Source: Limnohabitans sp. 2KL-17 (GTDB lineage Bacteria > Pseudomonadota > Gammaproteobacteria > Burkholderiales > Burkholderiaceae_C). From it: 64,000 nucleotides of DNA. Positions 7,055 through 59,237 of the stretch are shown here, in pieces. Each line of letters begins with the position of its first letter. Positions within the stretch are counted from its first letter, which is position 1. Position numbers and translations under genes: made by a program. The notes below the pieces were generated by a model. That model had not been told where the DNA came from. It saw only the letters and a program-made list of their open reading frames with translations, and did not search any database. The stretch covers positions 62,001 through 126,000 of the forward strand of contig NZ_NESK01000005.1 in the NCBI RefSeq assembly GCF_003063415.1, given 5' to 3'.

Positions 7055-7069
7055 TTTTTTCCCAAAAAA

Positions 7070-7572: not shown

Positions 7573-7583
7573 GGTTGGGCTCC

Positions 7584-7865: not shown

Positions 7866-7879
7866 GGGGCCTCCTGAAA

Positions 7880-8167
7880 TTAATCTTGCTGAAACTCTTG
7901 AATGTGCAACACGACACTTTTGCCTTGTCGAGGGGTGGCCAAAAAGCCTTTGAACGTCCAAACACTGCCTACCGCTTGCTTGACCAGAGCTTCTGCCAGG
8001 GACCCGAAGGCCAAGGCGCGAAGTTTGAGCTGGACTTTTCGGGCTTGACCGGCCTCTTGTATTTCAGAGGCGTGCTCAAGAATCAAATCCAGAGCGGGCA
8101 AACCGGCGGGGGTGTAACGCAGAGCGTTTTGCTCGGCAATACAGGCAGTCAATTCTGTGCTGTTCAC
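7880..8167 (-). CDS. priB: Primosomal replication protein N (PriB)
   Basis: Single-stranded-DNA-binding OB-fold protein of the replication-restart primosome (PriA-PriB-DnaT pathway). 95 residues. The sequence [21 protein letters not shown] and the ending [22 protein letters not shown] match betaproteobacterial PriB. The start is a GTG: an in-frame stop lies two codons upstream, and GAGGA almost abuts the GTG, so initiation is odd and may rely on coupling to rpsF, whose stop is 17 nt away. Confidence 0.92.
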
Positions 8168-8184
8168 TCCTCAACAGGCCAGCA

Positions 8185-8550
8185 TCAAGCGGCGAATTCG
8201 GCTTGTTGTGATTTACGGGCTTCTTCGCGCTCGACCGTCTTCATCATGGAAGAAGGACCGGCGTCTGCTTTCTTCTTGAGCACAGTCAGGTGACGCAAAA
8301 CGGCATCGTTGAACTTGAAGGCATGCTCCAGTTCAGCCATGACGGCTTGATCGGCTTCAATATTGACGCACAGGTAGTGGGCTTTGCCCAGTTTGTTGAT
8401 CTGGTATGCCAACTGACGGCGGCCCCAGTCTTCAACACGGTGGATGTTGCCACCGCCGGCAGTGATCATGCCTTTGTATCGCTCCAGCATGGCCGGAACT
8501 TGTTCGGACTGATCGGGATGGATCAGCAAAATGATTTCGTAATGACGCAT
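8185..8550 (-). CDS. rpsF: 30S ribosomal protein S6
   Basis: S6, which binds S18 on the 30S platform. 121 residues, start [19 protein letters not shown], with AAGGAG upstream of the ATG. The C-terminus is a charged tail ([15 protein letters not shown]), common in proteobacterial S6. First gene of the rpsF-priB-rpsR-rplI operon. Confidence 0.98.
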
Positions 8551-8586
8551 TGAGACTCCTTGCGGTTAACCTAAAAGGTTGGAAAA

Positions 8587-8615
8587 GCCGCCCCCAGCGT
8601 CTGTTGGGGTGCGGC
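8587..8615 (-). promoter_or_regulatory. Hairpin in the rpsF leader (candidate S6:S18 autoregulatory element or attenuator)
   Basis: On the minus strand GCCGC-A-CCCCA pairs with TGGGG-GCGGC around an 8-nt loop, with one bulged base, followed by TTTTCC and 37 nt later by the rpsF ATG. Structured rpsF leaders that bind the S6:S18 complex are known in many bacteria. The hairpin plus short U run could instead be a terminator for the upstream symporter. I cannot separate the two by eye. Confidence 0.5.
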
Positions 8616-8630
8616 AAGGCGAAGCCTCGA

Positions 8631-8636
8631 ATTATA
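8631..8636 (-). promoter_or_regulatory. Candidate -10 box for the rpsF operon
   Basis: A perfect TATAAT on the minus strand, 81 nt upstream of the rpsF ATG and just past the symporter stop. No good -35 hexamer is visible at 16-18 nt, so confidence rests on the -10 match and on location. Confidence 0.4.
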
Positions 8637-8644
8637 GCTTTAAT

Positions 8645-10747: not shown

Positions 10748-10780
10748 ACTTTGAGACAACAAAGATCCGTGCTCAAAAAA

Positions 10781-13171
10781 TCAGCGGCCCAGTTGGGTCC
10801 AGGTTTCGATCACCGTGTCCGGGTTGAGCGAAATGGAGCTGATCCCCTGGTCCATCAACCAACGAGCGAAGTCCGGATGGTCACTGGGGCCCTGGCCGCA
10901 AATACCGATGTATTTGCCTTGTGACAAACAAGCCTCGATCGCTTGCGAAATAAGCGCCGTCACGGCTGGATCGCGCTCATCAAAGTCCATCGCCAGCAGG
11001 GGCATGCCTGAGTCACGGTCAAGGCCCAAGGTCAATTGCGTCAGATCGTTCGATCCGATCGAAAAACCATCAAAAAACGCCAGGAACTGCTTGGCCAGAA
11101 TGGCGTTGCTGGGCACTTCGCACATCATGATGAGCTTCAGGTCGTCTTCGCCACGTCGCAAACCCTGGGTGGCCAGCAAACGGGTCACCTTTTCGGCCTG
11201 CCCCAGCGTGCGAACAAAGGGCACCATGATCTGCACATTGGTCAGGCCCATCTCGCCGCGCACACGCTTGATTGCTTCGCATTCCATGGCAAAAGCTTCG
11301 CCAAAGTCTTCGCTGATGTAACGCGCTGCACCCCGAAAGCCCAGCATCGGGTTTTCTTCTTCCGGCTCGTATCGGCTTCCACCAATCAGCTTGCGGTATT
11401 CGTTGCTCTTGAAATCGGAAAGACGCACGATCACGGGCTTTGGCCAGAATGCCGCAGCGATGCTCGCAACCCCTTCAGCCACCTTGTCCACATAAAACGC
11501 ACGCGGAGATGCATGGCCACGGGCCACAGATTCCACAGCCTTTTTCAGGTCGGCGTCGATTGCTGGGTAGTCTAGGATGGCTTTGGGGTGCACGCCAATG
11601 TTGTTGTTGATGATGAACTCCAGACGCGCCAGTCCGACACCCGCGTTGGGCAGCTGGGCAAAATCAAAAGCCAACTGGGGGTTGCCCACGTTCATCATGA
11701 TTTTGGTTTTGATCTCGGGCAACACGCCACGCTGGATCTCACTGATTTCGGTTTCGAGCAAGCCGTCATAAATATGGCCGGTATCACCTTCAGCGCAGCT
11801 GACAGTCACAAGAGTGCCTTCATGCAACGCTTCCGTGGCGTTACCGCAGCCCACGACCGCTGGAATGCCCAACTCGCGGGCAATGATGGCGGCGTGACAG
11901 GTACGCCCGCCACGGTTGGTGACGATGGCGCTAGCCCGCTTCATCACAGGCTCCCAGTTCGGGTCGGTCATGTCTGTCACCAGCACGTCCCCAGGCTGCA
12001 CCTGGTCCATTTCGCTGATGTTGTGAACAAGACGGACCGGGCCTGTGCCAATCTTCTGACCAATCGCCCGCCCCTCAGCCAGGATCACGCTTTTGCCTTT
12101 GAGCTTGTATCGCAGTTCGGGGGTGCCTTTGGCCTGACTTTTGACGGTTTCCGGGCGGGCTTGCAGGATGTAAAGCAAACCATCCGTGCCGTCTTTTCCC
12201 CACTCGATGTCCATCGGGCGGCCGTAATGCCGCTCAATGATCACCGCATATCGGGCCAGCTGCTCGACTTCATCATCTGTCAGGCTATAGCGGTTTCGCA
12301 ATTCAGCAGGCACATCGGTGGTTTTGACCAGCTTGCCAGAAGCGGCTTTCTCTTCTGGGGTGGCAAATACCATTTCGATCAGCTTGGAGCCCAGGTTACG
12401 CCGGATGACGCAGCGCTTGCCGGCAGCCAGCATGGGCTTGTGAACATAAAACTCATCGGGATTGACCGCGCCCTGCACCACTGTCTCACCCAAACCGTAG
12501 CTTGAAGTGATGAACACCACGTCTTCAAAACCCGACTCGGTATCAATGGTGAACATCACGCCTGCCGCACCCAAATCAGAGCGAACCATGCGCTGAACAC
12601 CCGCTGACAAGGCCACATCGGCATGGGCAAAACCCTTGTGCACCCGATAACTGATAGCCCGGTCGTTGTAAAGGGATGCGAAGACTTCTTTCATCTTGTG
12701 CAGCACATCTTCGATGCCCACCACGTTCAAAAAGCTCTCTTGCTGCCCAGCGAACGAGGCATCAGGCAGATCTTCGGCTGTGGCGGAAGAGCGCACAGCG
12801 AATGAAGCATCGAGGTTACTGCCTTGCATGCGAACAAACTCTTCGCGAATGGCTTTTTCAAGATCGGCCGGAAAAGGTTGGTCCACGACCATGGCACGAA
12901 TTTCTGCACCTGCTGCGGCCAAGGCACGGACGTCCTCGGTGTCCAGGGCATCCAGTCGGGTGTTGATGCGCTCGGTCAAGCCACCGAAGGCCAGAAACTG
13001 CCGAAAAGCATGGGCGGTCGTGGCAAAACCTGTCGGCACACGCACTCCGGAAGGCAACTGGGAAATCATCTCCCCCAAACTGGCGTTTTTGCCACCGACC
13101 GACTCCACATCGGTCATGCGCAAATGCTCAAACGGGACGACCAGGGCGGTCTCACTGAAAAGATCAGGCAT
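10781..13171 (-). CDS. ppsA: Phosphoenolpyruvate synthase PpsA
   Basis: Converts pyruvate and ATP to PEP, AMP and phosphate for gluconeogenesis. 796 residues, family length. ATP-grasp N-domain with [12 protein letters not shown] and [19 protein letters not shown]; the phosphohistidine loop [18 protein letters not shown] contains the catalytic His; the PEP-binding C-domain ends with [17 protein letters not shown] and the reactive Cys of [14 protein letters not shown] 13171 has TTGGAG about 8 nt upstream. It is divergent from its own regulator ppsR. Confidence 0.97.
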
Positions 13172-13245
13172 TAAAAGCTCCAAAGTTAAAACCAGGCTCC
13201 ATGAGGCAGGACGGGGTTTTGTTGTTCTTGGTGTGAACCGCCGTC

Positions 13246-13292
13246 CGGGGTGCCATGGATAATCAGATCATTTTAGGGGGCTCGGCACCCCG
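13246..13292. promoter_or_regulatory. Inverted repeat between ppsA and ppsR
   Basis: Nine-base arms CGGGGTGCC (13246-13254) and GGCACCCCG (13284-13292) flank a 29-nt spacer in the 142-bp divergent gap. On the plus strand the right arm is followed by an AT-rich stretch ending in TTTTTT just before the ppsR ATG. It could be an operator or a ppsR leader hairpin. Confidence 0.45.
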
Positions 13293-13313
13293 TCATTTAA
13301 TTTTTTCAAGCCC

Positions 13314-14135
13314 ATGTCAAAACGCACTGTCTTTTTCGTTTCCGATGGCACTGGCATCACTGCCGAGACTTTCGGCAACGCCATCCTGGCCCAGTTCGAC
13401 ATGAAAACCAGGCATGTGCGTCTGCCCTTTACAGACACCATCGACAAAGCCCACCAGGCGGTGCGGCAGATCAACCACACCGCTGACACCGAAGGCAACA
13501 AGCCGATCGTATTCACCACCTTGGTGAACATGGATGTGCTCAAAGTCTTACAAGCGCATTGCCAAGGCATGCTGCTGGACATGTTTGGCACCTTCGTGAA
13601 TCCGCTGGAAAACGAGTTGGGCATCAAGTCACATCACCGGGTGGGTCGTTTTTCGGATGTGAGCAAAAGCAAGGAATACCACGACCGCATTGAGGCCATC
13701 AACTTCTCTTTGGCCCATGACGATGGGCAATCCAACCGCGATCTTGACTCTGCCGAGGTGATTTTGGTCGGTGTGAGTCGAAGCGGAAAGACACCAACCA
13801 GCCTATATTTGGCCATGCAGCATGGGCTGAAAGCTGCCAACTACCCCTTGATCCCCGAAGACTTTGACCGCAAGCAACTGCCACCAGCCTTGGTGCCACA
13901 CCGTAAAAAAATCTTCGGCTTGAGCATTCATCCCGATCGGCTGGCTGAAATTCGCGCCGAACGTCGGCCCAACTCACGTTACGCCAGTCTGGAAAATTGC
14001 CGCATGGAAGTCTCTGAGGCAGAAGCCATGATGCGCCGGTCTGGCATCCGCTGGCTGTCCACCACTACCAAATCGATCGAAGAAATTGCGACAACCATCT
14101 TGCAAGAAATCAAGCCCGACCGGTTGATTTATTGA
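13314..14135 (+). CDS. ppsR: PEP synthase regulatory protein (ADP-dependent kinase/pyrophosphorylase) PpsR
   Basis: DUF299 family bifunctional enzyme that inactivates PpsA by ADP-dependent phosphorylation and reactivates it by phosphorolysis. 273 residues. P-loop GVSRSGKT at 153-160; N-terminal VFFVSDGTGITAETFGNAIL; C-terminal RRSGIRWLSTTTKSIEEIA is the family signature. The divergent arrangement with ppsA supports the pairing. The preceding bases lack a strong ribosome-binding site. Confidence 0.96.
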   Translation: MSKRTVFFVSDGTGITAETFGNAILAQFDMKTRHVRLPFTDTIDKAHQAVRQINHTADTEGNKPIVFTTLVNMDVLKVLQAHCQGMLLDMFGTFVNPLENELGIKSHHRVGRFSDVSKSKEYHDRIEAINFSLAHDDGQSNRDLDSAEVILVGVSRSGKTPTSLYLAMQHGLKAANYPLIPEDFDRKQLPPALVPHRKKIFGLSIHPDRLAEIRAERRPNSRYASLENCRMEVSEAEAMMRRSGIRWLSTTTKSIEEIATTILQEIKPDRLIY

Positions 14136-14175
14136 GCCTCTGGCTTACCGCCATTGCAACGACAAGGCGGTGGAT

Positions 14176-15504
14176 TCACGCGAGTGTTGCAGCGATCCGT
14201 TCGGCGCACTTGCGAGCCTGCAAGGCAACGCGTGCCTCCACCATCACACGAACTAAAGGCTCGGTGCCACTGGCGCGAATCAAAACACGCCCAGAATCGC
14301 CCAACTCAGACTCCGCAGCCCGCTTGGCATCCCATAAAGCTTCATGGCCTTCCCAATCAAAGCCTGGCGCCAAACGCACATTGATCAAGGTTTGCGGAAA
14401 CAGTGTGATGTCCTCGAGCAGTTGCGCCATTGTCTGACCACTGCCCACGCAGGCTTGCAGCACCTGCAAAGCACTCACCAAACCGTCTCCCGTGGTGTGC
14501 TTGTCAAGGGCTAACAAATGGCCAGAGCCTTCACCACCCAGCAGCCAGCCTTTGTCGTGCAAGACTTCCAGCACATAACGGTCACCCACTTTCGCTCGCA
14601 CAAATTGAACACCGCGTCGCTTGAATGCCAATTCGACAGCCAAGTTGGTCATCAAGGTGCCCACGACCCCCGGCACGGCTTCATCACGGGCCAGTCGGTC
14701 AGCGACCATCAGATACAACAGCTCATCGCCGTTGAAAAGGCGGCCAGTGGCATCCACAAATTGCAACCGATCGGCATCACCATCCAGAGCAATGCCGTAA
14801 TGGGCACCATGGTCCTTGACAGCCTGCACCAAGGCCTCGGGGTGCGTGGCCCCCACAGCCTTGTTGATGTTCAGTCCGTCGGGCGAACAACCGATCGCGA
14901 TCACCTCGGCGCCCAGTTCGTGAAACACTTTGGGGGCAATTTGGTAGGCCGCACCATGGGCCGCATCTACCACGACCTTCAATCCTTTGAGTGTCAAATC
15001 GTTCGAAAAGGTGCTCTTACAAAATTCGATGTAACGCCCCGCAGCGTCGTTGAGGCGACGGGTTTTTCCCAGAGCGGCTGAATCCACCCAGGCCGGGTCC
15101 TCCAGAAGCATGGCCTCAACCGTCTCTTCCCAGGCATCCGATAGTTTTTTGCCTTGTGCACTGAAAAACTTGATGCCGTTGTCAGCAAAGGGGTTGTGGC
15201 TTGCGCTGATCACAACACCCAAAGAAGCACGCTGCGCACGGGTCAGATAAGCAACAGCGGGGGTGGGTACAGGACCCAGCAAAACCACATCAACCCCTGC
15301 TGAATTGAACCCTGACTCGAGTGCACTTTCGAGCATGTAGCCGGAAATACGGGTGTCTTTGCCGATCAGCACGGTCGGGTGCGCCTCTTGAGACTTCAAG
15401 ACACGGCCCACAGCATGCGCCAACCGCAAAATGAAATCCGGCGTGATGGGGCTTTGCCCCACTGTGCCGCGGATACCGTCTGTGCCGAAATATTGACGCG
15501 CCAT
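14176..15504 (-). CDS. glmM: Phosphoglucosamine mutase GlmM
   Basis: Isomerises glucosamine-6-phosphate to glucosamine-1-phosphate, feeding UDP-GlcNAc for peptidoglycan and lipid A. 442 residues. [16 protein letters not shown] at the N-terminus fixes the ATG at 15504. The catalytic Ser102 lies in [10 protein letters not shown], and the metal loop is DGDADR. It is downstream of folP by 102 bp and convergent with ppsR. The rlmE-ftsH-folP-glmM order is widespread in proteobacteria. Confidence 0.97.
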
Positions 15505-15606
15505 GAAAACAGTCCTGATTTTTGTAATAAGTTCTGGAATTTTAGCTGCCCGGGCAACCACTGATCCTGACAACAAGCAGGGATTTAGCGCATCAGCGCA
15601 CCTAAG

Positions 15607-16476
15607 TTATTGAATGGCTTGCCAGACTTTAAGAGCATCCACCGTCTCCTTGACATCGTGCACCCTGACCACAGAGGCACCCCGCTCCACAGCCAACAAG
15701 GCTGCTGCCACACTGGCCGACTGTCGCTGGGCAGGTTCTGGCACCTGCCCCTCTTTGGACAACACCGCGCCCAAAGCCGATTTGCGCGACCAACCCGCCA
15801 GAATGGGGTACCCCAAACCCAACAACTCAGCCTGCCTGGCCAATAATTGAAAGTTCTGGGCCACTGTTTTGCCAAAACCAATGCCTGGGTCAAGCACCAA
15901 TCTTTGCGCAGCGATCCCTTGCGCTAAAAGCACACGGACGCGATCTTGCAAAAATGTCTCCACCACTGCGAGCACATCGCCGGCCATGGTCTCCGTTTGC
16001 ATGGTTTGGGGATCACGGTGCATGTGCATCAAACAGACGCCACACCCCGGATGGGCCGCAATCACACGCTCTGCACCCGGTTGCCGCAAGGCCCAAATAT
16101 CGTTGATGATGTCCACACCGCAATCCAGCACGGCCTGCATCACCTCAGGTTTGTATGTGTCTACAGAAATCGGCACATGCCAACGAACAGCTTCACGAAC
16201 AAATGGCATAAGTCGAGCCAACTCCTGAGACAACGGCACAGCAGTTGCCCCTGGGCGCGTAGACTCGCCACCAATGTCCAGAATTTGAGCACCGTTGTCC
16301 AGCAATTTTTCTGCATGGCGCAAGGCTTGGGCCGTCAGCGCTTGCTGGCCACCATCCGAAAAAGAATCGGGCGTGATGTTCACAATGCCCATGACCCAGG
16401 GGCGAGAAAGGTCCAAGTCAAATCGCGCAGTCTGCCAGCGCTTTGCGACATTCAGTTCTGTTTGTTGGCATGCCAT
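15607..16476 (-). CDS. folP: Dihydropteroate synthase FolP
   Basis: Condenses p-aminobenzoate with 6-hydroxymethyl-dihydropterin pyrophosphate; the sulfonamide target. 289 residues. MGIVNITPDSFSDGG at about 29-43 and DIGGESTRPGA form the pterin/phosphate site; GIGFGKTVAQNFQLL and GWSRKSALG follow. The ATG is preceded by ATGGAG directly after the U-run of a hairpin, so translation starts about 20 nt past a terminator-like structure. Confidence 0.96.
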   Translation of the reverse strand: MACQQTELNVAKRWQTARFDLDLSRPWVMGIVNITPDSFSDGGQQALTAQALRHAEKLLDNGAQILDIGGESTRPGATAVPLSQELARLMPFVREAVRWHVPISVDTYKPEVMQAVLDCGVDIINDIWALRQPGAERVIAAHPGCGVCLMHMHRDPQTMQTETMAGDVLAVVETFLQDRVRVLLAQGIAAQRLVLDPGIGFGKTVAQNFQLLARQAELLGLGYPILAGWSRKSALGAVLSKEGQVPEPAQRQSASVAAALLAVERGASVVRVHDVKETVDALKVWQAIQ

Positions 16477-31934: not shown

Positions 31935-32453
31935 TTATTTACCCACCGAGGCATTGAGGGCCTTGATGACTTTTTCAGTGATGTCGTGCTTGGGGTTGAA
32001 GTAAGCAGCGTCCTGAAGTATCAGGTCGTACTTCTCTGACTCAGCAACTTGCTTTACCGCACGCCCTGCTTTTTCGAAAAGCATTTGATTTTCTTCATTT
32101 TTGCGAGCGCCCAAATCCTCCTGAAACTCCCGCTGGCGTCGTTTCAAGTCACGATCAAGTTCAATCAACTGTTTTTGCTTGGTCACCCTTTGCGCTTCCG
32201 ACAGTGTGGGCGCGTCGCGCTCGAACTTTTCGGCAGAAACCTTGAATGCACTGATGGCATCGTTCAAATCTTTCTCCCGCTTCAGGAATTCCGACTCCAA
32301 TTTCGCTTGAGCGGCTTTGGCCACATTGGAGTCACGCAGGATACGGTCTGTGTTGACAATGCCAATTTTGAAATCCTGGGCTTGGACCACAGAAGTCAAA
32401 AGGGATGCCCCAACAAGCAGCGCGGCAATAAAGTACTTGGAAAGCGTTTTCAT
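31935..32453 (-). CDS. skp: Periplasmic OmpH/Skp-family chaperone
   Basis: Holds unfolded outer-membrane proteins in the periplasm for the BAM complex. 172 residues. Signal peptide with hydrophobic core YFIAALLVGASLLTSVV and likely cleavage after AQA. The mature part is a long charged coiled coil (about residues 45-130) with GIVNTDRILRDS at the start. Its ATG overlaps the bamA TAA stop by one base. Confidence 0.95.
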   Translation of the reverse strand: MKTLSKYFIAALLVGASLLTSVVQAQDFKIGIVNTDRILRDSNVAKAAQAKLESEFLKREKDLNDAISAFKVSAEKFERDAPTLSEAQRVTKQKQLIELDRDLKRRQREFQEDLGARKNEENQMLFEKAGRAVKQVAESEKYDLILQDAAYFNPKHDITEKVIKALNASVGK

Positions 32454-34777
32454 TAGAAGGATGTTCCGATTTGGAATTGTAGTCGTTGAATTTTATCGTT
32501 TGTCTGCTTGCGAATGGGCATCGCATAGGACAAGCGCAGGGGGCCCATGGGTGAAATCCAGCTCAGACCGATGCCGGCAGACGCACGTAACTCAGCAAGT
32601 GACAGTTTTTGTTCTTCAGCAAACGCACTGCCTACATCGGTAAAACCGTAGAGGCGAAGCGTTTTGTCGTTGCCCGCGCCAGGGAAAGGCATCATGAACT
32701 CTGCGTTCAAAACCACTTTTTTGGGACCACCTAGGTAAACCAACGCTGAAGTGGTGTCATTTTGAATTGTTCGCTCTGATGGCCCAAGAGTGGATTGCTC
32801 AAACCCGCGAACACTGCCCAAGCCACCCACATAAAAGTTCTTGAACAAGGGGAACTCTTGACCACTCAGGCCCTTGCCCCAACCCACGTCGGCATTCACA
32901 GCCAGCGTGTATTTTTTACTTAACGGGAAATACTGCTGGTATTGGTAATTGCTGCGGAAATAACGCACGTCACCAGCAAGGCTCAAATCAGCGTTTAACC
33001 TTTGATAAGTCCCCCTGGAAGGCACCAAGGCGCTGTCTCGCCCGTCCCGAGCCCAGCCTAGGGTTAAAGGTATAGCGGTACTGGTGGCACCGAAATCATT
33101 AGCGTATTTTAGGTAGGGGTAAGGCAGACCCGTTCCCGTTTTTATTTGGGTCTGCTCGGCGTTTGCTCCTACAAAAACAGTGTCTGTCTCTGTCACCGGT
33201 ACGCCAAAACGAAGCCCTAAGCCTGAATTGACCAGGCTGTAGGAATTGATGTCACCTAAATAGGGCCGCGTGGTTCGCTGAAAAACATCAAGGGTCCTGG
33301 AAATGCCGTTTTGTGTGAAGTAGGGGTCCGTGGTGCTCACGACCAAGTTTCGGTTGTACTTGCTGGTGTTGACTTCAACGGCCAGGTAATTGCCTGAACC
33401 AAAAGCATTTTCCTGGCGAATACCAAAGCTCAAGGTCACTTTTTCTGCCGAGGAAAAGCCTGCCCCCAGCGAAATACTGCCTGTCGGCTTTTCTGCCACG
33501 GTGAACATCAAATCAACTTGGTCGGGTGTGCCGGGAATCTCGATGGTTTCCACGTTCACGTCCGTGAAAAAGCCCAAACGGTCGACTCTGTCGCGTGACA
33601 GTCGAATTTTGTCACCGTCGTACCAAGCGGCCTCAAACTGGCGAAATTCGCGGCGGATCACTTCATCGCGGGTGCGGTTGTTGCCTGCCACCAAAATGCG
33701 CCGAACATAAGCACGGCGTGAAGGTTCGGCCTGCAGGACAAACTGAACACGGTTGTTTTGTCGGTCAATTTCAGGCTTGGCTTCCACCTTGGCGAAAGCA
33801 AAACCAAACTTGCCGAAATAATCGGTGAACGCCTTTGTAGTCTCCGCCACGGTCTCCGCGTTGTAAGGTTTGCCAACGCCGATTTTGACCAAGGCCTTGA
33901 ATTCGTCGTCCTTGTCGAGGTAGTTGCCCTCCAACTTGACCCCCGAGACCACGAATCGTTCCCCTTCGGTCACATTGATGGTGATGGCCATTTCCTGTTT
34001 GTCTGGCGACATGGCCACTTGGGTGGAGTCAATGCGGAACTCCAAAAAGCCCCGAGACAGATAATAAGAACGCAGTGACTCAAGATCGGCATTGAGCTTT
34101 GTTCTGGCATAACGATCGGACTTGGTGTACCAACTCATCCAACCGCCCGTGTCCAGATTGAACTGGTCACGCAAATTGGATTCAGAGAACGCCTTGTTTC
34201 CCACAATCTGAATCTGCTTGATCTTTGCCGGTCCACCTTCTGTGATGGTAAAGCTCAAATTGACGCGGTTGCGATCGACAGGCGTTGCTGTGCTCACCAC
34301 TTCAGCGCCGTAAAGACTGCGGCTGATGTACTGACGCTTGAGTTCTTGTTCGGCCTTGTCAGCCAAAGCCTTGTCGTAGGGCCGGCCTTCGGCCAACCCC
34401 ACCTCTTTCAAGGCTTTGAGCAGAACATCTTTGTCAAACTCTTTGAGGCCGATGAACTCGACCATCGCCACAGATGGGCGCTCTTCCACCACAACCACCA
34501 GCACGTCACCCTGGGTTTCAACACGCACATCCTTGAACAAACCCAAGGCAAACAAAGCGCGAATGACTGCGGCGCCTTTTTCGTCTGAGTATTGGTCTCC
34601 GACACGCAATGGCAGAGATGCAAAAACAGTTCCTGCTTCAATTCGCTGCAGACCCTCGACACGAATGTCTCGGACAGTGAACGGATCGACGGCCCAAGCA
34701 GGCATGCAGGCCATCAAGGAAATCGCCACGGTCAAAGCAGCAGGTTGAAGGCGCGAACGAATGTCAAAAAAATTCAT
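32453..34777 (-). CDS. bamA: Outer membrane protein assembly factor BamA
   Basis: Omp85-family core of the BAM complex. 774 residues. Signal peptide (LTVAISLMACMPAWA), then five POTRA domains (~25-425), e.g. FTVRDIRVEGLQRIEAGTVF and RFVVSGVKLEGNY; the 16-strand barrel follows, with the conserved loop-6 VRGFEQSTLGP near residue 660. It ends in aromatic Phe (QFQIGTSF), as barrel proteins do. In most proteobacteria rseP precedes bamA; here dxr does. Confidence 0.97.
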   Translation of the reverse strand: MNFFDIRSRLQPAALTVAISLMACMPAWAVDPFTVRDIRVEGLQRIEAGTVFASLPLRVGDQYSDEKGAAVIRALFALGLFKDVRVETQGDVLVVVVEERPSVAMVEFIGLKEFDKDVLLKALKEVGLAEGRPYDKALADKAEQELKRQYISRSLYGAEVVSTATPVDRNRVNLSFTITEGGPAKIKQIQIVGNKAFSESNLRDQFNLDTGGWMSWYTKSDRYARTKLNADLESLRSYYLSRGFLEFRIDSTQVAMSPDKQEMAITINVTEGERFVVSGVKLEGNYLDKDDEFKALVKIGVGKPYNAETVAETTKAFTDYFGKFGFAFAKVEAKPEIDRQNNRVQFVLQAEPSRRAYVRRILVAGNNRTRDEVIRREFRQFEAAWYDGDKIRLSRDRVDRLGFFTDVNVETIEIPGTPDQVDLMFTVAEKPTGSISLGAGFSSAEKVTLSFGIRQENAFGSGNYLAVEVNTSKYNRNLVVSTTDPYFTQNGISRTLDVFQRTTRPYLGDINSYSLVNSGLGLRFGVPVTETDTVFVGANAEQTQIKTGTGLPYPYLKYANDFGATSTAIPLTLGWARDGRDSALVPSRGTYQRLNADLSLAGDVRYFRSNYQYQQYFPLSKKYTLAVNADVGWGKGLSGQEFPLFKNFYVGGLGSVRGFEQSTLGPSERTIQNDTTSALVYLGGPKKVVLNAEFMMPFPGAGNDKTLRLYGFTDVGSAFAEEQKLSLAELRASAGIGLSWISPMGPLRLSYAMPIRKQTNDKIQRLQFQIGTSF

Positions 34778-50950: not shown

Positions 50951-52138
50951 ATGCGCATATCCCAACGCGCTCAGCGCATTGAGCCTTTTTATGTGATGGA
51001 GGTGGCCAAGGCTGCCTCCCGAAAAGCCCGAGAGGTCGCGCACACCGATCGACCCGTGGTGTTTCTGAACATTGGCGAACCCGACTTCACCGCCCCGCCC
51101 CGGGTACAACAAGCAGCACAAGCAGCGATTCGGTCAGGCCAAACACAATACACCCCGGCGCTGGGCCTGGACACCCTGCGACAAGCCATCAGCGACTGGT
51201 ACGGCACGCGATTTGGCGTATCGGTGCCCGCCAGCCGCATCGTGGTCACAGCGGGCGCATCGGCGGCGCTGCAACTGGCCTGCCTGGCGCTGATCGACCG
51301 GGGCGATGAAATCCTCATGCCCGACCCAAGCTACCCCTGCAACCGCCACTTTGTGAGCGCTGCTGAAGGCACTGCGGTGCTGGTACCCACCAAGGCCGAA
51401 GAACGCTATCAACTCAGCGCCAACAAAGTAGCTGCGGCCTGGGGGCCCAATACCCGTGGCGTCTTGCTGGCATCACCGTCCAACCCCACAGGCACGTCAA
51501 TTGACCCGATCGAATTGGCTCGCATCGTGGACGTGGTGCGTGCCCATGGCGGCATCACTCTGATCGACGAGATTTATCTGGGCCTGAGCCACGACGCACA
51601 GTTTGGCCAAAGCGCCCTGGCGCTGGGTGACGACATCATCAGCATCAACAGCTTCAGCAAATACTTCAACATGACCGGCTGGCGGTTGGGCTGGCTGGTG
51701 GTGCCGGAACAACTGGTGCCCGTGCTGGAGCGTCTGGCGCAAAACCTGTTCATTTGCGCCAGCACTGTGGCACAACAAGCCGCCCTCGCCTGCTTTGAAC
51801 CCGAGAGCCTGGCTGAATACGAGCGCCGCCGCGCCGAGTTCAAGGCCAGGCGCGACTACTTCATCCCGGCCCTGAATGAACTTGGCCTGACGGTACCCGT
51901 GCCCCCCGATGGCGCGTTTTACGCTTGGGCCGATTGCTCGGCAGTCTGTCAAAAGATGGGCCTGAAAGACAGCTGGGAATTCGCCTTCGCGGCCCTCGAG
52001 CATGCGCATGTCGCCATCACACCTGGCCGAGACTTCGGCACCGACCAAACCGCCCACTTTGTGCGCTTTTCCACCGCCAATTCGATGGCCGAACTGCACA
52101 CTGCCATTGCCCGCCTGAAAGCCTGGTTGCAGCCATGA
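50951..52138 (+). CDS. Pyridoxal-phosphate-dependent class I/II aminotransferase
   Basis: Fold-type I aminotransferase, 395 residues. PLP Lys237 in INSFSKYFNMTGWRLGW; ASPSNPTGT, DEIYLGL and the C-terminal Arg in HFVRFSTANSM bind substrate carboxylate. It resembles aspartate/alanine/aromatic transaminases; the amino acid is not evident. It lies between nusB and ybgC, a placement common in this family of bacteria, and its stop overlaps ybgC (ATGA). Confidence 0.9.
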   Translation: MRISQRAQRIEPFYVMEVAKAASRKAREVAHTDRPVVFLNIGEPDFTAPPRVQQAAQAAIRSGQTQYTPALGLDTLRQAISDWYGTRFGVSVPASRIVVTAGASAALQLACLALIDRGDEILMPDPSYPCNRHFVSAAEGTAVLVPTKAEERYQLSANKVAAAWGPNTRGVLLASPSNPTGTSIDPIELARIVDVVRAHGGITLIDEIYLGLSHDAQFGQSALALGDDIISINSFSKYFNMTGWRLGWLVVPEQLVPVLERLAQNLFICASTVAQQAALACFEPESLAEYERRRAEFKARRDYFIPALNELGLTVPVPPDGAFYAWADCSAVCQKMGLKDSWEFAFAALEHAHVAITPGRDFGTDQTAHFVRFSTANSMAELHTAIARLKAWLQP

Positions 52139-52566
52139 GCCCCCCCCAGGAAACACACCCCCCGTTTCAGCACCCCATCAGAATCTACTGGGAAGACACC
52201 GATGCGGGCGGCATCGTTTTTTATGCCAACTACCTGAAGTTTTTTGAACGTGCGCGCACCGAATGGTTGCGCGAACTGGGCTTTGGGCAACAACTGCTGC
52301 GCGAAGAGACCCGTGGCATGTTCGTGGTCAGTGAAACCACCGTCAAATACCTCGCACCTGCCCGATTGGACGACACCCTGACCGTCACAGCCCAGCTGCA
52401 AGAAGCCGGCCGCGCAAGCCTCACCATTGCCCAGCGCGCTTACCTGCCCACACCTGGCCAAGCCGACCGGCTGCTGGCCGAAGCCACCATTCGTCTGGGC
52501 TGGGTCGACAGCACCACCTTGAAACCGGGCCGCATTCCAGCCCCTGTTCTGAAAGCCATGAAATGA
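52135..52566 (+). CDS. ybgC: Tol-Pal-associated acyl-CoA thioesterase YbgC
   Basis: Hot-dog-fold thioesterase, 143 residues from the ATG giving MSPPQETHPPF. Signature IYWEDTDAGGIVFYANYLKF with the catalytic Asp, then FFERARTEWLRELG. First gene of the tol-pal operon in proteobacteria; the stop overlaps tolQ by 4 nt (ATGA). Confidence 0.95.
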   Translation: MSPPQETHPPFQHPIRIYWEDTDAGGIVFYANYLKFFERARTEWLRELGFGQQLLREETRGMFVVSETTVKYLAPARLDDTLTVTAQLQEAGRASLTIAQRAYLPTPGQADRLLAEATIRLGWVDSTTLKPGRIPAPVLKAMK

Positions 52567-53267
52567 ACCAAGACATGTCCATCGTCTCGCTGCTTTTGCA
52601 CGCCAGTTTTGTCGTGCAACTTGTGGTCTTGCTTTTGCTGGGCATTTCAGTGGCCAGCTGGGCGGCCATTGTGCGCAAGCTCAGCGCCATCAAGCGCATC
52701 AAAAATCTGAACGAAGAGTTTGAACGTGTTTTCTGGTCCGGCACCAGTCTGAACGAGTTGTTCAACGCTGCCAGCCAGAACGCCAAACTGGCAGGCCCGA
52801 TGGAACGTATTTTTGCCAGCGGCATGCGCGAATACCAAAAACTGCGCGAACGCCAAATCAGCGATGCAGGCACCCTGCTCGACGGCGCACGTCGCGCCAT
52901 GCGGGCGAGCTTTCAGCGCGAAATGGATGTCGCTGAATCTCAGCTCGCATTTTTGGCTTCGGTCGGCTCCATCTCGCCTTACGTGGGCTTGTTTGGCACG
53001 GTGTGGGGCATCATGCACGCCTTCACCGGCCTGGCCAGCTTGCAGCAAGTCACCCTGGCCACGGTGGCGCCGGGCATTGCCGAAGCGCTGGTGGCCACGG
53101 CCATCGGTCTGTTTTCTGCTATTCCAGCCGTGCTGGCCTACAACCGGTTTTCGCACGATGTAGACCGCATCGCCATCAAGCTGGAAACCTTCATCGAAGA
53201 GTTCTCCAACATCCTGCAGCGCAGCCTGGGGGCCACGGGTACCAGCGGCTCGGCCTCCGGTCACTGA
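52563..53267 (+). CDS. tolQ: Tol-Pal system proton channel TolQ
   Basis: Inner-membrane subunit homologous to ExbB/MotA. 234 residues, three membrane segments (~14-37, ~135-157, ~168-190). The conserved GLFGTVWGIMHAF and VAPGIAEALVATAIGLFSAIPAVLAYN blocks line the proton path. Confidence 0.96.
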   Translation: MNQDMSIVSLLLHASFVVQLVVLLLLGISVASWAAIVRKLSAIKRIKNLNEEFERVFWSGTSLNELFNAASQNAKLAGPMERIFASGMREYQKLRERQISDAGTLLDGARRAMRASFQREMDVAESQLAFLASVGSISPYVGLFGTVWGIMHAFTGLASLQQVTLATVAPGIAEALVATAIGLFSAIPAVLAYNRFSHDVDRIAIKLETFIEEFSNILQRSLGATGTSGSASGH

Positions 53268-53282: not shown

Positions 53283-53702
53283 ATGCCAGCCATCTCAACC
53301 CGGGGCCGCGGACGCCGCACCATCTCTGAAATCAACATGGTGCCCTTCATCGACGTGATGCTGGTGCTGCTCATCATCTTCATGGTCACCGCACCCATGA
53401 TCACGCCCAGCGTGGTCGACTTGCCCAGCGTTGGCAAAGCTGCCAAACAGCCCGACAAAGTCATTCAAATCGTGATCCAGAAAGATGAGCGCCTGGAACT
53501 GGTCACCGATGGCAAGACCGACAGCGCCACCCTCACCAGCGTGGCAGGCAGTGTCAAAAGCCTCGTTGGCGAAGAAGACAACACAGCCGTTGTCATCAGC
53601 GCCGACCGCAGCGTGAAATACGAAACCGTGGTCAAGGTCATGGACAGCCTGCAACGCGCGGGCATTGCACGTGTGGGCCTGTCGGTCCAACTTGCACCTT
53701 GA
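53283..53702 (+). CDS. tolR: Tol-Pal system protein TolR
   Basis: 139 residues; single N-terminal membrane helix (~22-40) with the proton-carrying Asp in EINMVPFIDVMLVLLIIFMV, then a periplasmic domain ending GIARVGLSVQLAP. Homologous to ExbD/MotB; 15 nt after tolQ. Confidence 0.95.
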   Translation: MPAISTRGRGRRTISEINMVPFIDVMLVLLIIFMVTAPMITPSVVDLPSVGKAAKQPDKVIQIVIQKDERLELVTDGKTDSATLTSVAGSVKSLVGEEDNTAVVISADRSVKYETVVKVMDSLQRAGIARVGLSVQLAP

Positions 53703-53712: not shown

Positions 53713-54666
53713 TTGAACACCAAGACAGTGCCTCACCTCGAATTTGCGCCGCCGGCACAAGCCGGAACGGGGCGCGCCTGGGTGGTCGCGGGCATTGTCC
53801 ACGTGTTGCTGTTCCTGGCGCTGGGCCTGGCCACGGCCTGGAAAACCCAGCCCCAAACCGTTCAAGCCGAAGCCGAACTGTGGTCTGCTACCCCCCAGGC
53901 CGCAGCCCCCCGACTGCAAGAGCCACTGCCTGAGCCGCAGCCCGAACCCGTGCCCGAGCCAACGCCTGCACCGCCAGCCAAACCCACACCACCACCGCCA
54001 CCGGCCCCTGATCCGGCGCTGGAATTGCGTGACGCGCAAATTGCGCTTGAAAAGAAAAAGCAGCAAGAAAAGAATAAAGAAGCCGATAAAGTCGAAAAAC
54101 TAAAAGCTGAAAAGCTCAAGGTCGAGAAAGAAAAAGCCGAGAAAACCAAGGCTGAAAACAAGAGCAAGGAACTCGACAAAGAAAAACTGGCGAAAGAGAA
54201 AAAAGCCCAGGAAGAAAAAGAACGCTACAAGAAAAAGGCCACCGAAAAAGCCAAGGCTGAAAAAGCAGAAAAAGCCGATGCCGCCCAGGCCGAAGCACTG
54301 CGCCAAGAAAACCTCAAACGCATGCAAGGCATGGCCGGTGCTTCAGGCGGAGAAAATGCCAGCGGCACAGCCCTCAAGTCATCGGGGCCGTCGGCCAGCT
54401 ACGGAGGCAAAATTATCCGAGAAATACTTGCTAAAACCAATAACTCAGACTCAACTCCCGGAGCATTAACAGTCGTTGTGTTTGTTCGCGCCAACTCGTC
54501 GGGCGAAATTATGAATAGCCGCGTAATAACACCTAGCAGAAGTCGTGAATTTGACGATTCGGTTCTTCGAGGAATCCAAAAAATGGAACGCGTTCCAAAG
54601 GACATTGACGGAAGAATTCCTGAAATTTTGATCCGCGAGGGACTTGAGTTGACCGTCTCAAGATAA
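53713..54666 (+). CDS. tolA: Tol-Pal system protein TolA with compositionally foreign C-terminal domain
   Basis: Energy-transducing link from TolQR to the outer membrane. 317 residues from a TTG with GAGGG ~7 nt upstream. Membrane helix ~22-43, Pro-rich segment ~66-105, Lys/Glu/Ala coiled coil ~110-205, then a TolA/TonB-type C-terminal domain (YGGKIIREILAKTNN to GRIPEILIREGLELTVSR). From about nt 54400 codon use changes sharply: ATA, TTA, AGA, CGA and GGA codons that neighbours avoid. tolB and pal do not follow. Confidence 0.9.
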   Translation: MNTKTVPHLEFAPPAQAGTGRAWVVAGIVHVLLFLALGLATAWKTQPQTVQAEAELWSATPQAAAPRLQEPLPEPQPEPVPEPTPAPPAKPTPPPPPAPDPALELRDAQIALEKKKQQEKNKEADKVEKLKAEKLKVEKEKAEKTKAENKSKELDKEKLAKEKKAQEEKERYKKKATEKAKAEKAEKADAAQAEALRQENLKRMQGMAGASGGENASGTALKSSGPSASYGGKIIREILAKTNNSDSTPGALTVVVFVRANSSGEIMNSRVITPSRSREFDDSVLRGIQKMERVPKDIDGRIPEILIREGLELTVSR

Positions 54667-54700
54667 ATAAAAAATTACTGACTCATCTCACAATTAGATT
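54400..54700. other. AT-rich segment spanning the 3' end of tolA
   Basis: About 300 bp visibly richer in A and T than the flanks, covering the last ~88 codons of tolA and the 33-bp gap to the convergent oxidoreductase. No inverted repeats or target duplications were seen at its edges. I read it as a recombination or transfer scar. Confidence 0.6.
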
Positions 54701-55686
54701 TATAAATCCACCACCACATTGCCCACCGTCTGTCCTGCCTCAACTGTGCGGTGGGCCTGGGCGATCTGATCCAGCGAAAAGCGGGCGCTCATGCTGTGCT
54801 GCAACAGGTTACGAGCCAACATGTCCGAAAGGCGGGCCACGGCCAATTGGCGGTCAGCAGGCGTCAGGTCGTAGACCAGAAAAAACTTCACGCCGATGGA
54901 TTGAAACAACCAAGGCCTGAATGGCAGGGAAACATCTGGTGCGTTCGAGCCGTAGCAAACCACCTGGCCGTGCGCGGCCAAAGCCCCTTCGGCGGCCCAG
55001 CGTGAGGTGGTCGAAAAATCCATGTCGAGGATGACTTCTGCGCCACGGCCTTGCGTCAAGGCCTTGACGCGCTCGGGCACCGACTCGGTCTTGTAAAAAA
55101 TAGCTTCTTGCAGACCGGCTGCGCGGGCATGTTCGGCCTTGGCTTGTGAGCCCACGGTGCCGATGGCTCGCCCCCCGGCCAGCGTCACCATCTGGGTGAT
55201 GTAATGCCCCACAGCCGATGAGGCGCCAGTGACCAAAACGGTTTTGCCGCGCAAATCACCGGCCAGTCGCTCGGCCAAAATGACCGCCTGCATTGCCGTG
55301 AGGCCGGGAATGCCCATGCAGGCCCCAGCGGCAAAGTCAGTCCCATCGGGCAGTGCCACCGCTTGCGACTCGGACAACGCAATGTATTCGGCACAGGTGC
55401 CCATGGGGCGCTGCCATTGGCCATTCCAGAGCCATACCCGTTGCCCCACGCGCGATGCCGACACGCCTGCACCGACTGCTTCGATCACGCCCGCGCCATC
55501 GCTGTGCGGCACGACCAACGCGTCGGTCAAGGGACGCGCCCGGCGCGATTTGACATCAGAAGGGTTCACCCCCGAAGCGGCCATGCGAACCAGCACCTCA
55601 CCCGCTTGCGGCGTGGGCGTGGGCAACTCACCCACCTGCATCACGTCTTGGGCTTCACCGTTCTGGCTGTACCAGGCTGCTTTCAT
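54700..55686 (-). CDS. NADPH:quinone reductase-like medium-chain oxidoreductase
   Basis: Zinc-free medium-chain dehydrogenase/reductase of the quinone-reductase branch, 328 residues. N-terminal GroES-like domain (GEVLVRMAASGVNPSDVKSR), Rossmann domain with VLVTGASSAVGHYITQMV. No structural- or catalytic-zinc cysteine cluster is seen. ATG 55686 has AGGAG upstream. It lies 20 nt downstream of dnaE and converges on tolA. Confidence 0.9.
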   Translation of the reverse strand: MKAAWYSQNGEAQDVMQVGELPTPTPQAGEVLVRMAASGVNPSDVKSRRARPLTDALVVPHSDGAGVIEAVGAGVSASRVGQRVWLWNGQWQRPMGTCAEYIALSESQAVALPDGTDFAAGACMGIPGLTAMQAVILAERLAGDLRGKTVLVTGASSAVGHYITQMVTLAGGRAIGTVGSQAKAEHARAAGLQEAIFYKTESVPERVKALTQGRGAEVILDMDFSTTSRWAAEGALAAHGQVVCYGSNAPDVSLPFRPWLFQSIGVKFFLVYDLTPADRQLAVARLSDMLARNLLQHSMSARFSLDQIAQAHRTVEAGQTVGNVVVDL

Positions 55687-55706
55687 CAAAGGTCTCCTAG
55701 ATCGAC

Positions 55707-58700
55707 TCAATCGTAAACAATCTGCGCCTGCCCCTGATCGGCCTGGGCCATCCAGCTGGCCAGTGCCGCATCGGTGGGAAAGAATTTGGCGGCTTCGCCC
55801 AGCGCCAGTTCGGCGCGGGCAGCCAGGTCGTCGCTGCGGCGCTCCAGCACCAGTCGCACTCCCAGGCCGCGCACCAGATCACCCTGGTCCGTTTGTTCAC
55901 GTTGCGCCGGGAACTCCTTGACCAGGCGGGCGATGTCCGGCGCCCGGCCATTCACGGCCACACGCAGGTATTTGCCATACCGGCAACGGGCTGCACCCAA
56001 ATCCATGATCTGTTCGATCTTGAGACGGAAACCGCCCGAAAAACGGTCCGCCTGCATTTTGGCCGTGACGATGATCAGCTCGTCATCTTTCAGCAACTGC
56101 TTGGCCGAGTTGATCAAACCCTCGTCGGCGCTGGCCTCCATCGCGCCCGATTTGTCGTCGAGCTTGAAGATCGCGACTTTGCCGCGCTGACCGTTGATGA
56201 TGCGCAAATCGGTCACGATGCCCGCCAGCACCATGGACTCCCGGCTGTCGATCAAGTCGTCGATCTTGCGGCGCGCAAACTGACGCACCTCCCGCTCGAC
56301 TGCGTCAAACAGGTGACCCGACAAGAAAAAGCCGACAGCGGTTTTTTCGAGCAGCAAGCGCTCCTTGATGCCCCAGGGCATGACCGTAACCAGTTCAGGC
56401 TCTTGCGTGCTGGAACCGTGTGAATCGTCGCCCAGCATGTCAAACAAGCCGCCCTGATTGGCATTGGCCACAGCGGCACTGGCAAACTCAAAAGCCTTGT
56501 CGATGCTGGCTGACAAAGCGGCGCGGTTCATGTGCAGCGCGTCAAAAGCACCCGCCTTGATGAGCGCATCCACCGTGCGTTTGTTGATGCGGGTACGGTC
56601 TACGCGCACGGCAAAATCAAACAGGCTGGTGAAGGGCCCCCCCTCTTGGCGGGCCGCCACAATTGCCTCGATCGCCTGCTGGCCTGTGCCCTTGATGGCC
56701 CCCAGACCATAGCGAATGATCCTGTCTGTGACCGGCTCAAAGCGGTGGGTGCCGCGGTTCACATCGGGGGGGTCAAACGTGATGCCGAACTTGAGCGCAT
56801 CTTCGTGCAGCACCTTCAGCTTGTCAGTGTCGTCCATCTCCACCGTCATGTTGGCGCAGAAAAACTCGGCGGTGTAATGCACCTTGAGCCAACCGGTGTG
56901 GTACGCCAGCAGCGAATAAGCGGCCGCGTGCGACTTGTTGAAGCCATAGCCGGCAAACCGCTCCATCAGGTCAAAGATCTCATCGGCTTTGACGTCACCG
57001 ATGTCGTTTTTGGCCGCACCGACACGGAAAATGGCGCGGTGTTCGGCCATTTCTTCGGCCTTCTTCTTGCCCATGGCCCGGCGCAACATGTCGGCGCCGC
57101 CCAAGCTGTAGCCGCCCAGAATCTGGGCGGTTTGCATGACCTGTTCCTGGTAGACCATGATGCCGTAGGTCTCGCTGAGCATCTCGGCGACCAAGGGGTG
57201 CGGGTACTCAATCACCTCGCGACCGTGCTTGCGCGCCACAAAGCTGGGAATCAGGTCCATGGGGCCGGGACGGTACAGCGCGTTCAGGGCAATCAGGTCT
57301 TCCAGCCGGCTGGGGCGAGCATCGCGCAACATGCCCTGCATGCCACGGCTTTCAAACTGGAACACGGCCTCGGTCTTGCCATCGGCAAACAATTTGTAGG
57401 TCCGCGCATCGTCCAGCGGGATGTTTTCAAACGCAAAGTCTTCTTGCCCCTTGTGCCTGCGAACGATGAATTCGCGGGCTATTTCCAGAATGGTCAGCGT
57501 GGCCAGACCCAAAAAGTCAAACTTCACCAAGCCCGCCGCCTCCACGTCGTCCTTGTCGAACTGGCTCACGGCCGATTCGCTGCCAGGCTGCTGGTACAAC
57601 GGGCAAAAGTCGGTCAGCTTGCCGGGTGCGATCAAAACGCCACCCGCGTGCATGCCCACATTGCGGGTCATGCCTTCGAGCTTCTGCGCCAGCTCGATCA
57701 AGGTCTTCACATCTTCTTCGCGCTCGATGCGTTCGGCCAGGATCGGCTCCATGGCGATGGCGTAGTTGTTCTTGTCGCCCTCTTTGGGGGTGGCCGGCGG
57801 GTATTGCAGCGTGACCGACATGCCCGGCTTGTTGGGAATGAGCTTGCTGATGCCATCGCAAAAGGTGTAACTCATGTCCAGCACGCGGCCCACATCGCGA
57901 ATGGCAGCTCGCGCGGCCATGGTGCCGAAAGTCACGATCTGGCTGACCGCCTCGCGGCCATACTTTTGCTTCACATACTCGATCACCCGATCGCGGTTGG
58001 TCTGGCAAAAATCAATGTCAAAGTCGGGCATGGACACCCGTTCTGGGTTCAAAAACCGCTCGAACAGCAAGTTGTATTGCAAAGGGTCCAGGTCGGTGAT
58101 CTTGAGCGAATAGGCCACCAGCGAGCCAGCACCGGAACCTCGGCCTGGCCCCACCGGGCAACCGTTGGCTTTGGCCCATTGGATGAAGTCCCCCACGATC
58201 AGGAAATAGCCGGGGAAACCCATGTTCAAAATGGTAGTCAGCTCGAACTCCAGGCGTTCCACATAGCGCGGGCGCTCCTGGGCGCGCAAGGTTTCCTCCG
58301 GAAAAAGGTGTTTCAGGCGCGCTTCCAGGCCTTCATGGGACATATGGCGGAAATAAGCTTCTACCGACATCACCACGCCATTCACGGGGGGAATCGGGAA
58401 ATTGGGCAGCTGTGGCTTGCCCAGCACCAAGGTCAGGTTACAGCGCTTGGCGATTTCCAGGGTGTTGGCGATCGCACTGGGTACATCGGCAAACAAAGTA
58501 CACATTTGCTGGGCCGATTTGAAGTATTGCTCGCGTGTGAATCGACGCACCCGTCGCTGGTTGGCCAATATTTCGCCTTCTGAAATACACACCCTCGCCT
58601 CGTGCGCCTCGTAGTCTTCGGCGGTATGAAACTGCACCGGATGCGTGGCCACCACCGGCAAATGCAAACGGGCAGCCAAGGCCACAGCCCCCGCGACATG

Positions 58701-59237
58701 GGGCTCATCTTCGGGGCGACCCGCACGCTGCAGTTCGAGGTAAAAGCGGTGCGGAAAGATCGAAGCCAATTGCAGCGCCACATCGGCAGCCTTGTCGGTG
58801 TCGCCCTGCAAAATGGCTTGACCCACAGGACCTGCCTGCGCGCCGGACAGCAAGATCAGGCCCTCGGACAGCTCTTTCAGCCATTCCAGCTTGACCACGG
58901 CAACGGATTTGACAATGTTCTTCGTCCAGGCACGGGCCAGCAGCTCGCAGATGTTCAAGTAGCCTTGCTGGTTTTGTACCAACAGCACGACCCGGCTGAT
59001 GGTGCCCAACTCGGCCCCCAGGCCTTCGAGGTTGATTTCAGCGCCAATGACCGGCTTGAGGCCCTTGCCGCGACTTTCCTTGTAAAACTTGACGGTGCCA
59101 AACAGGTTGTTCAGGTCGGTGATGGCCAGTGCAGGCTGGCCATCTTTGGCCGCGATGCTGACCACATCATCGATGCGGCAAGTGGAGTCAACAACAGAAA
59201 ATTCGGTGTGAAGGCGCAGGTGAACAAACATAGACAT
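55707..59237 (-). CDS. dnaE: DNA polymerase III alpha subunit DnaE
   Basis: Replicative polymerase catalytic subunit. 1176 residues. PHP domain at the N-terminus (FVHLRLHTEFSVVDS), polymerase palm with catalytic aspartates in MPDFDIDFCQTNRDRV (~403-418), GPGRGSGAGSLVAYSL, helix-hairpin-helix, OB-fold and C-terminal tau-binding region. Start MSMFVH has two in-frame ATGs (59237, 59231); I took the first. Confidence 0.98.
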   Translation of the reverse strand: MSMFVHLRLHTEFSVVDSTCRIDDVVSIAAKDGQPALAITDLNNLFGTVKFYKESRGKGLKPVIGAEINLEGLGAELGTISRVVLLVQNQQGYLNICELLARAWTKNIVKSVAVVKLEWLKELSEGLILLSGAQAGPVGQAILQGDTDKAADVALQLASIFPHRFYLELQRAGRPEDEPHVAGAVALAARLHLPVVATHPVQFHTAEDYEAHEARVCISEGEILANQRRVRRFTREQYFKSAQQMCTLFADVPSAIANTLEIAKRCNLTLVLGKPQLPNFPIPPVNGVVMSVEAYFRHMSHEGLEARLKHLFPEETLRAQERPRYVERLEFELTTILNMGFPGYFLIVGDFIQWAKANGCPVGPGRGSGAGSLVAYSLKITDLDPLQYNLLFERFLNPERVSMPDFDIDFCQTNRDRVIEYVKQKYGREAVSQIVTFGTMAARAAIRDVGRVLDMSYTFCDGISKLIPNKPGMSVTLQYPPATPKEGDKNNYAIAMEPILAERIEREEDVKTLIELAQKLEGMTRNVGMHAGGVLIAPGKLTDFCPLYQQPGSESAVSQFDKDDVEAAGLVKFDFLGLATLTILEIAREFIVRRHKGQEDFAFENIPLDDARTYKLFADGKTEAVFQFESRGMQGMLRDARPSRLEDLIALNALYRPGPMDLIPSFVARKHGREVIEYPHPLVAEMLSETYGIMVYQEQVMQTAQILGGYSLGGADMLRRAMGKKKAEEMAEHRAIFRVGAAKNDIGDVKADEIFDLMERFAGYGFNKSHAAAYSLLAYHTGWLKVHYTAEFFCANMTVEMDDTDKLKVLHEDALKFGITFDPPDVNRGTHRFEPVTDRIIRYGLGAIKGTGQQAIEAIVAARQEGGPFTSLFDFAVRVDRTRINKRTVDALIKAGAFDALHMNRAALSASIDKAFEFASAAVANANQGGLFDMLGDDSHGSSTQEPELVTVMPWGIKERLLLEKTAVGFFLSGHLFDAVEREVRQFARRKIDDLIDSRESMVLAGIVTDLRIINGQRGKVAIFKLDDKSGAMEASADEGLINSAKQLLKDDELIIVTAKMQADRFSGGFRLKIEQIMDLGAARCRYGKYLRVAVNGRAPDIARLVKEFPAQREQTDQGDLVRGLGVRLVLERRSDDLAARAELALGEAAKFFPTDAALASWMAQADQGQAQIVYD

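Follow-up and report, generated by a model that had tools for sequence, protein, structure and literature searches.

Probable replacement of TolA domain III by a foreign, AT-richer segment in Limnohabitans sp. 2KL-17, beside an older split of the tol-pal operon

How does a tolA gene come to end in DNA that resembles neither the rest of the gene nor the tolA genes of its congeners? The part of the protein encoded there, TolA domain III, is the site at which filamentous phages and several colicins come together with the envelope motor. The question is raised by a 64-kb stretch of the Limnohabitans sp. 2KL-17 genome, positions 62001–126000 of the 136-kb contig C57 (hereafter “the window,” to which coordinates refer unless a contig or locus is named); the genome is 3.5 Mb in 111 contigs, with completeness 100 and contamination 0.03. 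A sequence-only reading of the window had proposed that one recombination event both exchanged the C-terminal domain of TolA and split the tol-pal operon, and the two halves of this proposal have to be judged separately.

The reading frame concerned (53713..54666, forward strand; 317 aa from 53713, start uncertain) is recognizable as tolA in that it scores 71 bits against NCBIfam TIGR02794 (cut-off 59.45), lies 3′ of tolQ and tolR, and ends in a predicted TolAIII fold. It is the sole match in the genome and, as no second tolA was found, what appears to be a chimeric gene presumably works as TolA. Its flanks are native. Upstream, an acyl-CoA thioesterase gene in the YbgC position 5′ of tolQ (52138..52566, +; Pfam 4HBT_2 7.9e-19 on 52138–52563; start codon putative) is followed by tolQ (52563..53267, +; TIGR02796, 282.6 bits, cut-off 221) and tolR (53283..53702, +; TIGR02801, 127.1 bits, just below the cut-off of 127.3), which are 83–97% and 60–93% identical, respectively, to those of 29 genus loci—the TolR minimum of 60% being the comparison with G021, whose own TolR is an outlier. 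Downstream lie a convergent quinone-oxidoreductase-like gene (54700..55710, −; NCBIfam PIG3-type, 125 bits, under cut-off), 83–87% identical in three congeners that carry it in the same place, and dnaE (55707..59237, −; named by eye, without a family call), 72–94% identical in genus loci.

The composition of tolA changes near its 3′ end. Its last 93 codons have a GC of 0.46 and a GC3 of 0.42, as against 0.57 and 0.58 in the remaining frame, and hold 13 ATA, TTA, AGA, CGA, GGA, CTA, or AGG codons, as against 5 in the remainder. Positions 54405–54700 form the lowest-GC 296-bp stretch of the window and the sole place in it that reaches a GC of ≤0.416. The synonymous-codon score of the 86-codon domain III is −1.41, compared with a mean of −1.06 (sd 0.10) over 1488 overlapping stretches of the other long ORFs, of which four score equally low, all within one mechanical ORF at 32453–34777. 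The AT-rich stretch extends to the stop codon of the convergent gene at 54700. The codon and GC switch near 54400 and the AT-rich run up to the next gene, both claimed by the sequence-only reading, are thus confirmed, and its description of the encoded piece as a TolA C-terminal domain agrees with a Pfam TonB_2 match (1e-9 for domain III alone, on 54385–54663; 2.3e-8 in the whole protein) and with the predicted fold.

Amino-acid content was considered as a source of the AT-richness and rejected, as it accounts for domain II and fails for domain III. The Lys/Glu-rich TolA domain II (~54013–54240) is likewise low in GC (0.39–0.47) because of its amino acids, with no foreign origin needed.

DNA identity to congeners breaks at the same two places. 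Relative to G032, it falls from 0.84–0.88 at 54300–54399 to 0.30 at 54400–54449, and it returns from 0.32 at 54650–54699 to 0.78 at 54700–54749; the profile against G024 has both of these edges plus a further dip at 54100–54199 inside domain II. Alignment with three congeners places the 5′ edge in an SSGPSASY linker and the 3′ edge at the neighbor’s stop codon. Together with the identity profile and the GC minimum, it delimits a putative imported segment at 54402..54699 (+; edges good to ~10 bases), comprising the domain III codons (86 codons, 54406..54663, +) and the spacer up to that stop codon. The segment therefore differs in composition from its flanks and has defined edges. Low GC is not the rule for this domain in the genus: domain III has a GC of 0.55–0.66 in 28 of 29 relatives (the 29th, L024, was left out of the comparison). 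In an AT-richer congener, G176, domain III has a GC of 0.46 and the remaining gene 0.50, and its sequence is standard.

The encoded domain is divergent as well. Identity of the 2KL-17 domain III to those of the 29 genus loci is 32–40% (median 36%), whereas the 406 mutual pairs among those loci are 61–100% identical. Across the genus, 85 of 90 genomes have a domain III match, i.e., 2KL-17 itself and 84 others at 28–45%; the five without one are 69–85% complete. The C-terminal tail of the variant is absent from all other genus loci whose domain III sequences were examined. In the family, 307 of 399 genomes match at 1e-5 or better, and the only close one is G640, a member of another genus, whose TolA is 51% identical over residues 1–85 and 53% in global alignment and shares the tail GLELTVS. 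The G640 variant is a true tolA between tolR and dnaE, and its domain is not AT-rich (GC 0.54–0.56). Both variant domains are 3–4 residues longer than the usual 92, and G099, a congener of G640, has the standard tail. G640 apart, the best matches of the variant are ordinary TolA domains of the same family.

Phylogeny places the domain and its gene neighbors apart. In a domain III tree of 104 rows, the 2KL-17 sequence is sister to that of G640 (support 99/95), with a long end branch (1.07) and few columns, whereas a tree of TolQ plus TolR places 2KL-17 inside its own genus (100/99); the two positions conflict, as is expected of an acquired segment. An AU test weakly disfavored the genus with 2KL-17 as one clade (p 0.029), although the genus without 2KL-17 also fared poorly (p 0.071).

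The predicted structure is a complete TolA domain. AlphaFold2 models of the variant and of the G032 domain III were built from 55-row alignments. That of the variant (pLDDT 91.0) has a helix at residues 8–19, strands at 31–38 and 43–51, a helix at 56–69, a short helix at 82–86, and a strand at 89–94; the G032 model (pLDDT 92.3) has the same elements without the short helix, its last strand being 83–88. The part peculiar to the variant is thus predicted to be its tail (54622..54663, +; model residues 82–95), with a short extra helix, absent in the G032 model, and a rewritten last strand (β3); the tail sequence is shared with G640. The best Foldseek match of the variant model is 6S3W (1.6e-4), and the closest solved structures are TolAIII domains, including some solved in studies of TolB, of colicin A, or of phage proteins from IF1 and CTXphi.

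These data lead us to propose, with a probability of roughly 0.75, that foreign, AT-richer DNA encoding a distant domain III has overwritten the last ~86 tolA codons together with the short spacer that follows them, and that the resulting chimera should work. In favor of the domain exchange of the sequence-only reading are the composition, the two sharp breaks in identity, the disagreement between the trees, and the G640 tail; native flanks, an open frame, and the predicted TolAIII fold are consistent with it. Import of domain III is well, if not conclusively, supported by these sequence comparisons. A short fragment may have entered by homeologous recombination, for which the conserved SSGPSASY linker would have served as the 5′ anchor and the end of the neighboring gene as the 3′ anchor. 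TolQ and TolR would then energize the chimera via its native N-terminal part, and the chimera would pull TolB by strand addition, with the TolB N-terminal segment added onto the chimera’s β3, largely by backbone contact. Of 20 congeners, six have exactly this segment (QFRVEVTGVGMTQLPV), and the others depart from it at one or a few positions (e.g., M/L, L/V, T/S, R/K). With a TolB segment like that of congeners and a rewritten β3, strand addition plausibly continues with a new surface. Escape from docking filamentous phages or bacteriocins would be a plausible, and the likeliest, advantage of such a swap, and would fit the site.

Domain III could instead have changed fast in place under phage or bacteriocin pressure, with a local drift to AT, and we consider this unlikely. 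It would fit a domain of the same family in an open frame with a kept predicted fold, and it would also fit the outcome of the donor searches, in which the best matches besides G640 were ordinary TolA domains of the same family. Searches of phage, plasmid, IMG/VR, and GTDB collections and of genome samples from the order and family found no donor with near-identical DNA. Phage records gave 13 weak matches (E 0.4–0.7, several annotated as tail proteins), which we take as chance, plasmids gave four weak TolA matches from Paraburkholderia (E 0.5), and DNA-level searches of both gave no match. IMG/VR gave no relative, and GTDB contigs yielded two partial matches only (48 and 40%, each over 40 residues). 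A donor was likewise not found in 399 genomes of the order or in one genome from the genus of G103, and among the matches listed for 399 relatives of G640, many of them overlapping earlier samples, no other passes position 87 of 96. Yet change in place does not readily account for a composition shift that reaches past the tolA stop codon to the end of the spacer, a place without selection on the protein, or for a tail held in common with another genus; moreover, the divergent domains of G736 and G633, described below, coincide with composition shifts of their own.

An integrated mobile element was rejected as the source of the segment: the spacer between tolA and the oxidoreductase is 33 bp and holds no gene, and no direct repeat of at least 14 bp pairs the two edges. 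Neither a terminator nor a promoter was found at the junction spot.

An assembly error, by which a piece of another organism’s DNA was joined into the contig, is very improbable. The genome is a 111-contig draft and the segment looks foreign; nevertheless, the DNA on either side is native, with its genes ordered as in congeners, the frame is open across the junction, the predicted fold is complete, and the junction spot lies inside a 136-kb contig.

The domain might also have come from a gene other than tolA that has a TolA-like end, a source for which G028 offers a precedent. There, locus L131 (contig C20, 8254–9630, +) encodes a caspase-domain protein (Peptidase_C14, 1.1e-38) with a terminal TolA-like TonB_2 domain (1.2e-17), a GC of 0.49, and a similar linker. 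Still, the domain in G028 is like the standard one of its genus rather than the variant, whose nearest relative is the true tolA of G640, between tolR and dnaE; we therefore give this source little credence. The genes behind the G028 fusion are, by eye, a putative MORN-repeat protein gene and a putative transposase pair of the IS21 type. Within the genus, what separates tolA from dnaE varies considerably, and in two congeners similar five-gene blocks of unassigned function lie there, in L132 (G034; 9991–15813) and L134 (G029; 3477–9290). L132 also holds, at 9241–9723, three separate pieces matching the oxidoreductase that adjoins dnaE; they are apparently the remains of the gene that 2KL-17 has in full.

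The operon half of the question has a different answer. The sequence-only reading had tolB and pal missing; they are indeed absent from the window and from directly behind tolA, but loss can be rejected, as both are intact on the same contig (C57:56097–58011, minus strand). There they form, with ybgF, a tolB-pal-ybgF group (C57:55318–58011, minus strand), 58.7 kb away, and TolB, Pal, and YbgF all score above their NCBIfam cut-offs. A recent split is rejected as well, since the separation is common to the genus relatives and family loci examined. Specifically, tolB lies within ~1.5 kb of tolA in none of the 29 genus loci, where tolA is followed by convergent dnaE in 24 and by the same oxidoreductase as in 2KL-17 in three; among the five without dnaE directly behind tolA, two have a longer insert and then dnaE, and L038 ends at once. 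Where tolA and tolB share a contig, ~417 kb (G012) or ~579 kb (G006) separates them. In a scan of 59 loci, tolB adjoined tolA in 0 of 40 family loci (from 39 genomes, two of the loci ending <150 bp from tolA), whereas it did so in 18 of 19 loci belonging to other families in the order; the nineteenth, L111, lacks matches to tolQ and tolR and probably represents a paralogue. The split of tolQRA from tolB-pal-ybgF is an older, separate, family-wide, and already known feature. Relatives with the same gene order were what the sequence-only reading had itself named as evidence against it, and for its operon half they exist. That a single rearrangement both exchanged domain III and separated tolB-pal from tolQRA is scarcely credible, as the two features meet at one place but the separation is present in genus and family loci that carry other versions of domain III.

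If domain III was replaced in 2KL-17, it may have been replaced elsewhere. We surveyed 126 loci, 124 of them usable, and compared the 109 from 22 genera with at least three usable members. The sample was not random: g55, g255, g118, and g121 were picked for long domain III branches in the tree, and most other genera because the family search had listed them as matching the variant. As the genera of G633 and G811 were among those chosen for long branches, no rates can be read from the survey. Four of the 109 loci were domain III outliers, defined by a best-mate identity >0.15 under the median of the genus: 2KL-17 (0.40), G736 (0.67), G633 (0.70), and G709 (0.73). TolQ is normal in the first three (0.97–0.99); G709 (L278) has low values for all three genes and so, as a distant member, is not counted with them. 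The same three show the largest falls in GC3 from TolQ to domain III, i.e., G736 −0.36 (rank 1 of 109; L305, 0.54 in domain III vs. 0.90 in TolQ), 2KL-17 −0.31 (rank 2), and G633 −0.18 (rank 3; L244, 0.76 vs. 0.94), where the mean offset over the 109 loci is −0.02 (sd 0.065). Only these extremes coincide, the domain III identity deficit and the GC3 offset being uncorrelated over the 109 loci (rho 0.12, p 0.21). G098 (domain III 0.76, TolQ 1.00) was flagged by one cut and not the other, and has no GC3 offset.

In G633, identity drops at the first bases of the domain and recovers within ~50 bp of the stop. This downstream edge appears only in the comparison with L242, as L243 differs from G633 all along the downstream DNA. 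In G736, low identity starts ~100 bp before the domain and continues to near the end of the fetched stretch, where the 3′ edge falls, and the domain is up to 76% identical to those of other genera vs. 67% to its own. As the three outliers with normal TolQ also rank lowest of all in GC3 offset, TolA domain III has probably been replaced more than once in the family, with 2KL-17 the most extreme of several likely cases.

The neighboring gene behaves in a comparable way. Six TolR outliers appeared in the survey; in three (G709, G639, and G014) TolQ is lowered too (0.79–0.87), and in the others the periplasmic part of TolR is low beside a TolQ of 0.93–0.95: G021 (TolR 0.48, TolQ 0.94), G811 (L247; 0.55, 0.93), and G146 (L306; 0.60, 0.95). 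The first 40 residues of the G021 TolR (L025, contig C50, 2491–2922, −) are nearly those of G012 and the remainder differs, which looks like a domain replacement in the gene next to tolA. In G811, tolR has a GC3 of 0.79 vs. 0.91 for tolQ. A tentative and more doubtful generalization would be that in this family TolA domain III and the periplasmic domain of TolR are exchangeable cassettes of the Tol motor. Short stretches of foreign DNA with edges matching the domains would replace them repeatedly, leaving TolQ and the membrane parts in place, because docking phages and bacteriocins would keep selecting new surfaces that still accept a little-changed TolB strand.

What could such alleles offer? 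A natural chimera whose domain III is 32–40% identical to those of congeners, beside a congener-like TolB segment, shows how far this interface may change and presumably still work. That three of 109 loci, in three genera, pair a normal TolQ with a domain III that is both divergent and shifted in composition suggests more than one accident, and natural alleles of this kind could separate the residues that serve TolB from those that serve parasites.

Among the matches listed in an open-licence PMC search (titles and abstract starts), we found no report of a replaced TolA domain III. Tandem-repeat variation in Escherichia coli tolA (PMC3477136) is likewise natural variation inside this gene, but there the number of repeats varies, whereas in 2KL-17 a whole domain appears replaced. 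The split locus has a close counterpart in Acidovorax avenae, where tolQRA also lies apart from tolB-pal-cpoB, with the same gene sets on both sides as in 2KL-17 and no difference apparent (PMC12204202). As for the domain itself, the predicted fold of the variant resembles solved TolAIII structures (PDB 1LR0, 6S3W, 3QDR, 2X9A, and 4G7X) over its whole length (Z 9.5–11.6), and the variant likewise stands at the end of a TolQRA locus; it differs in being only 14–18% identical to these five and, relative to the G032 domain, in the extra short helix before its last strand. In E. coli, TolB faces competition from colicin N and phage G3p for strand addition at TolAIII β3, and single proline changes in TolA abolish this addition (PMC4339652). 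The rewritten tail of the variant is, in our model, the last strand that corresponds to β3, where TolB, colicin N, and G3p are described as adding their strands (PMC4339652; PMC7391070).
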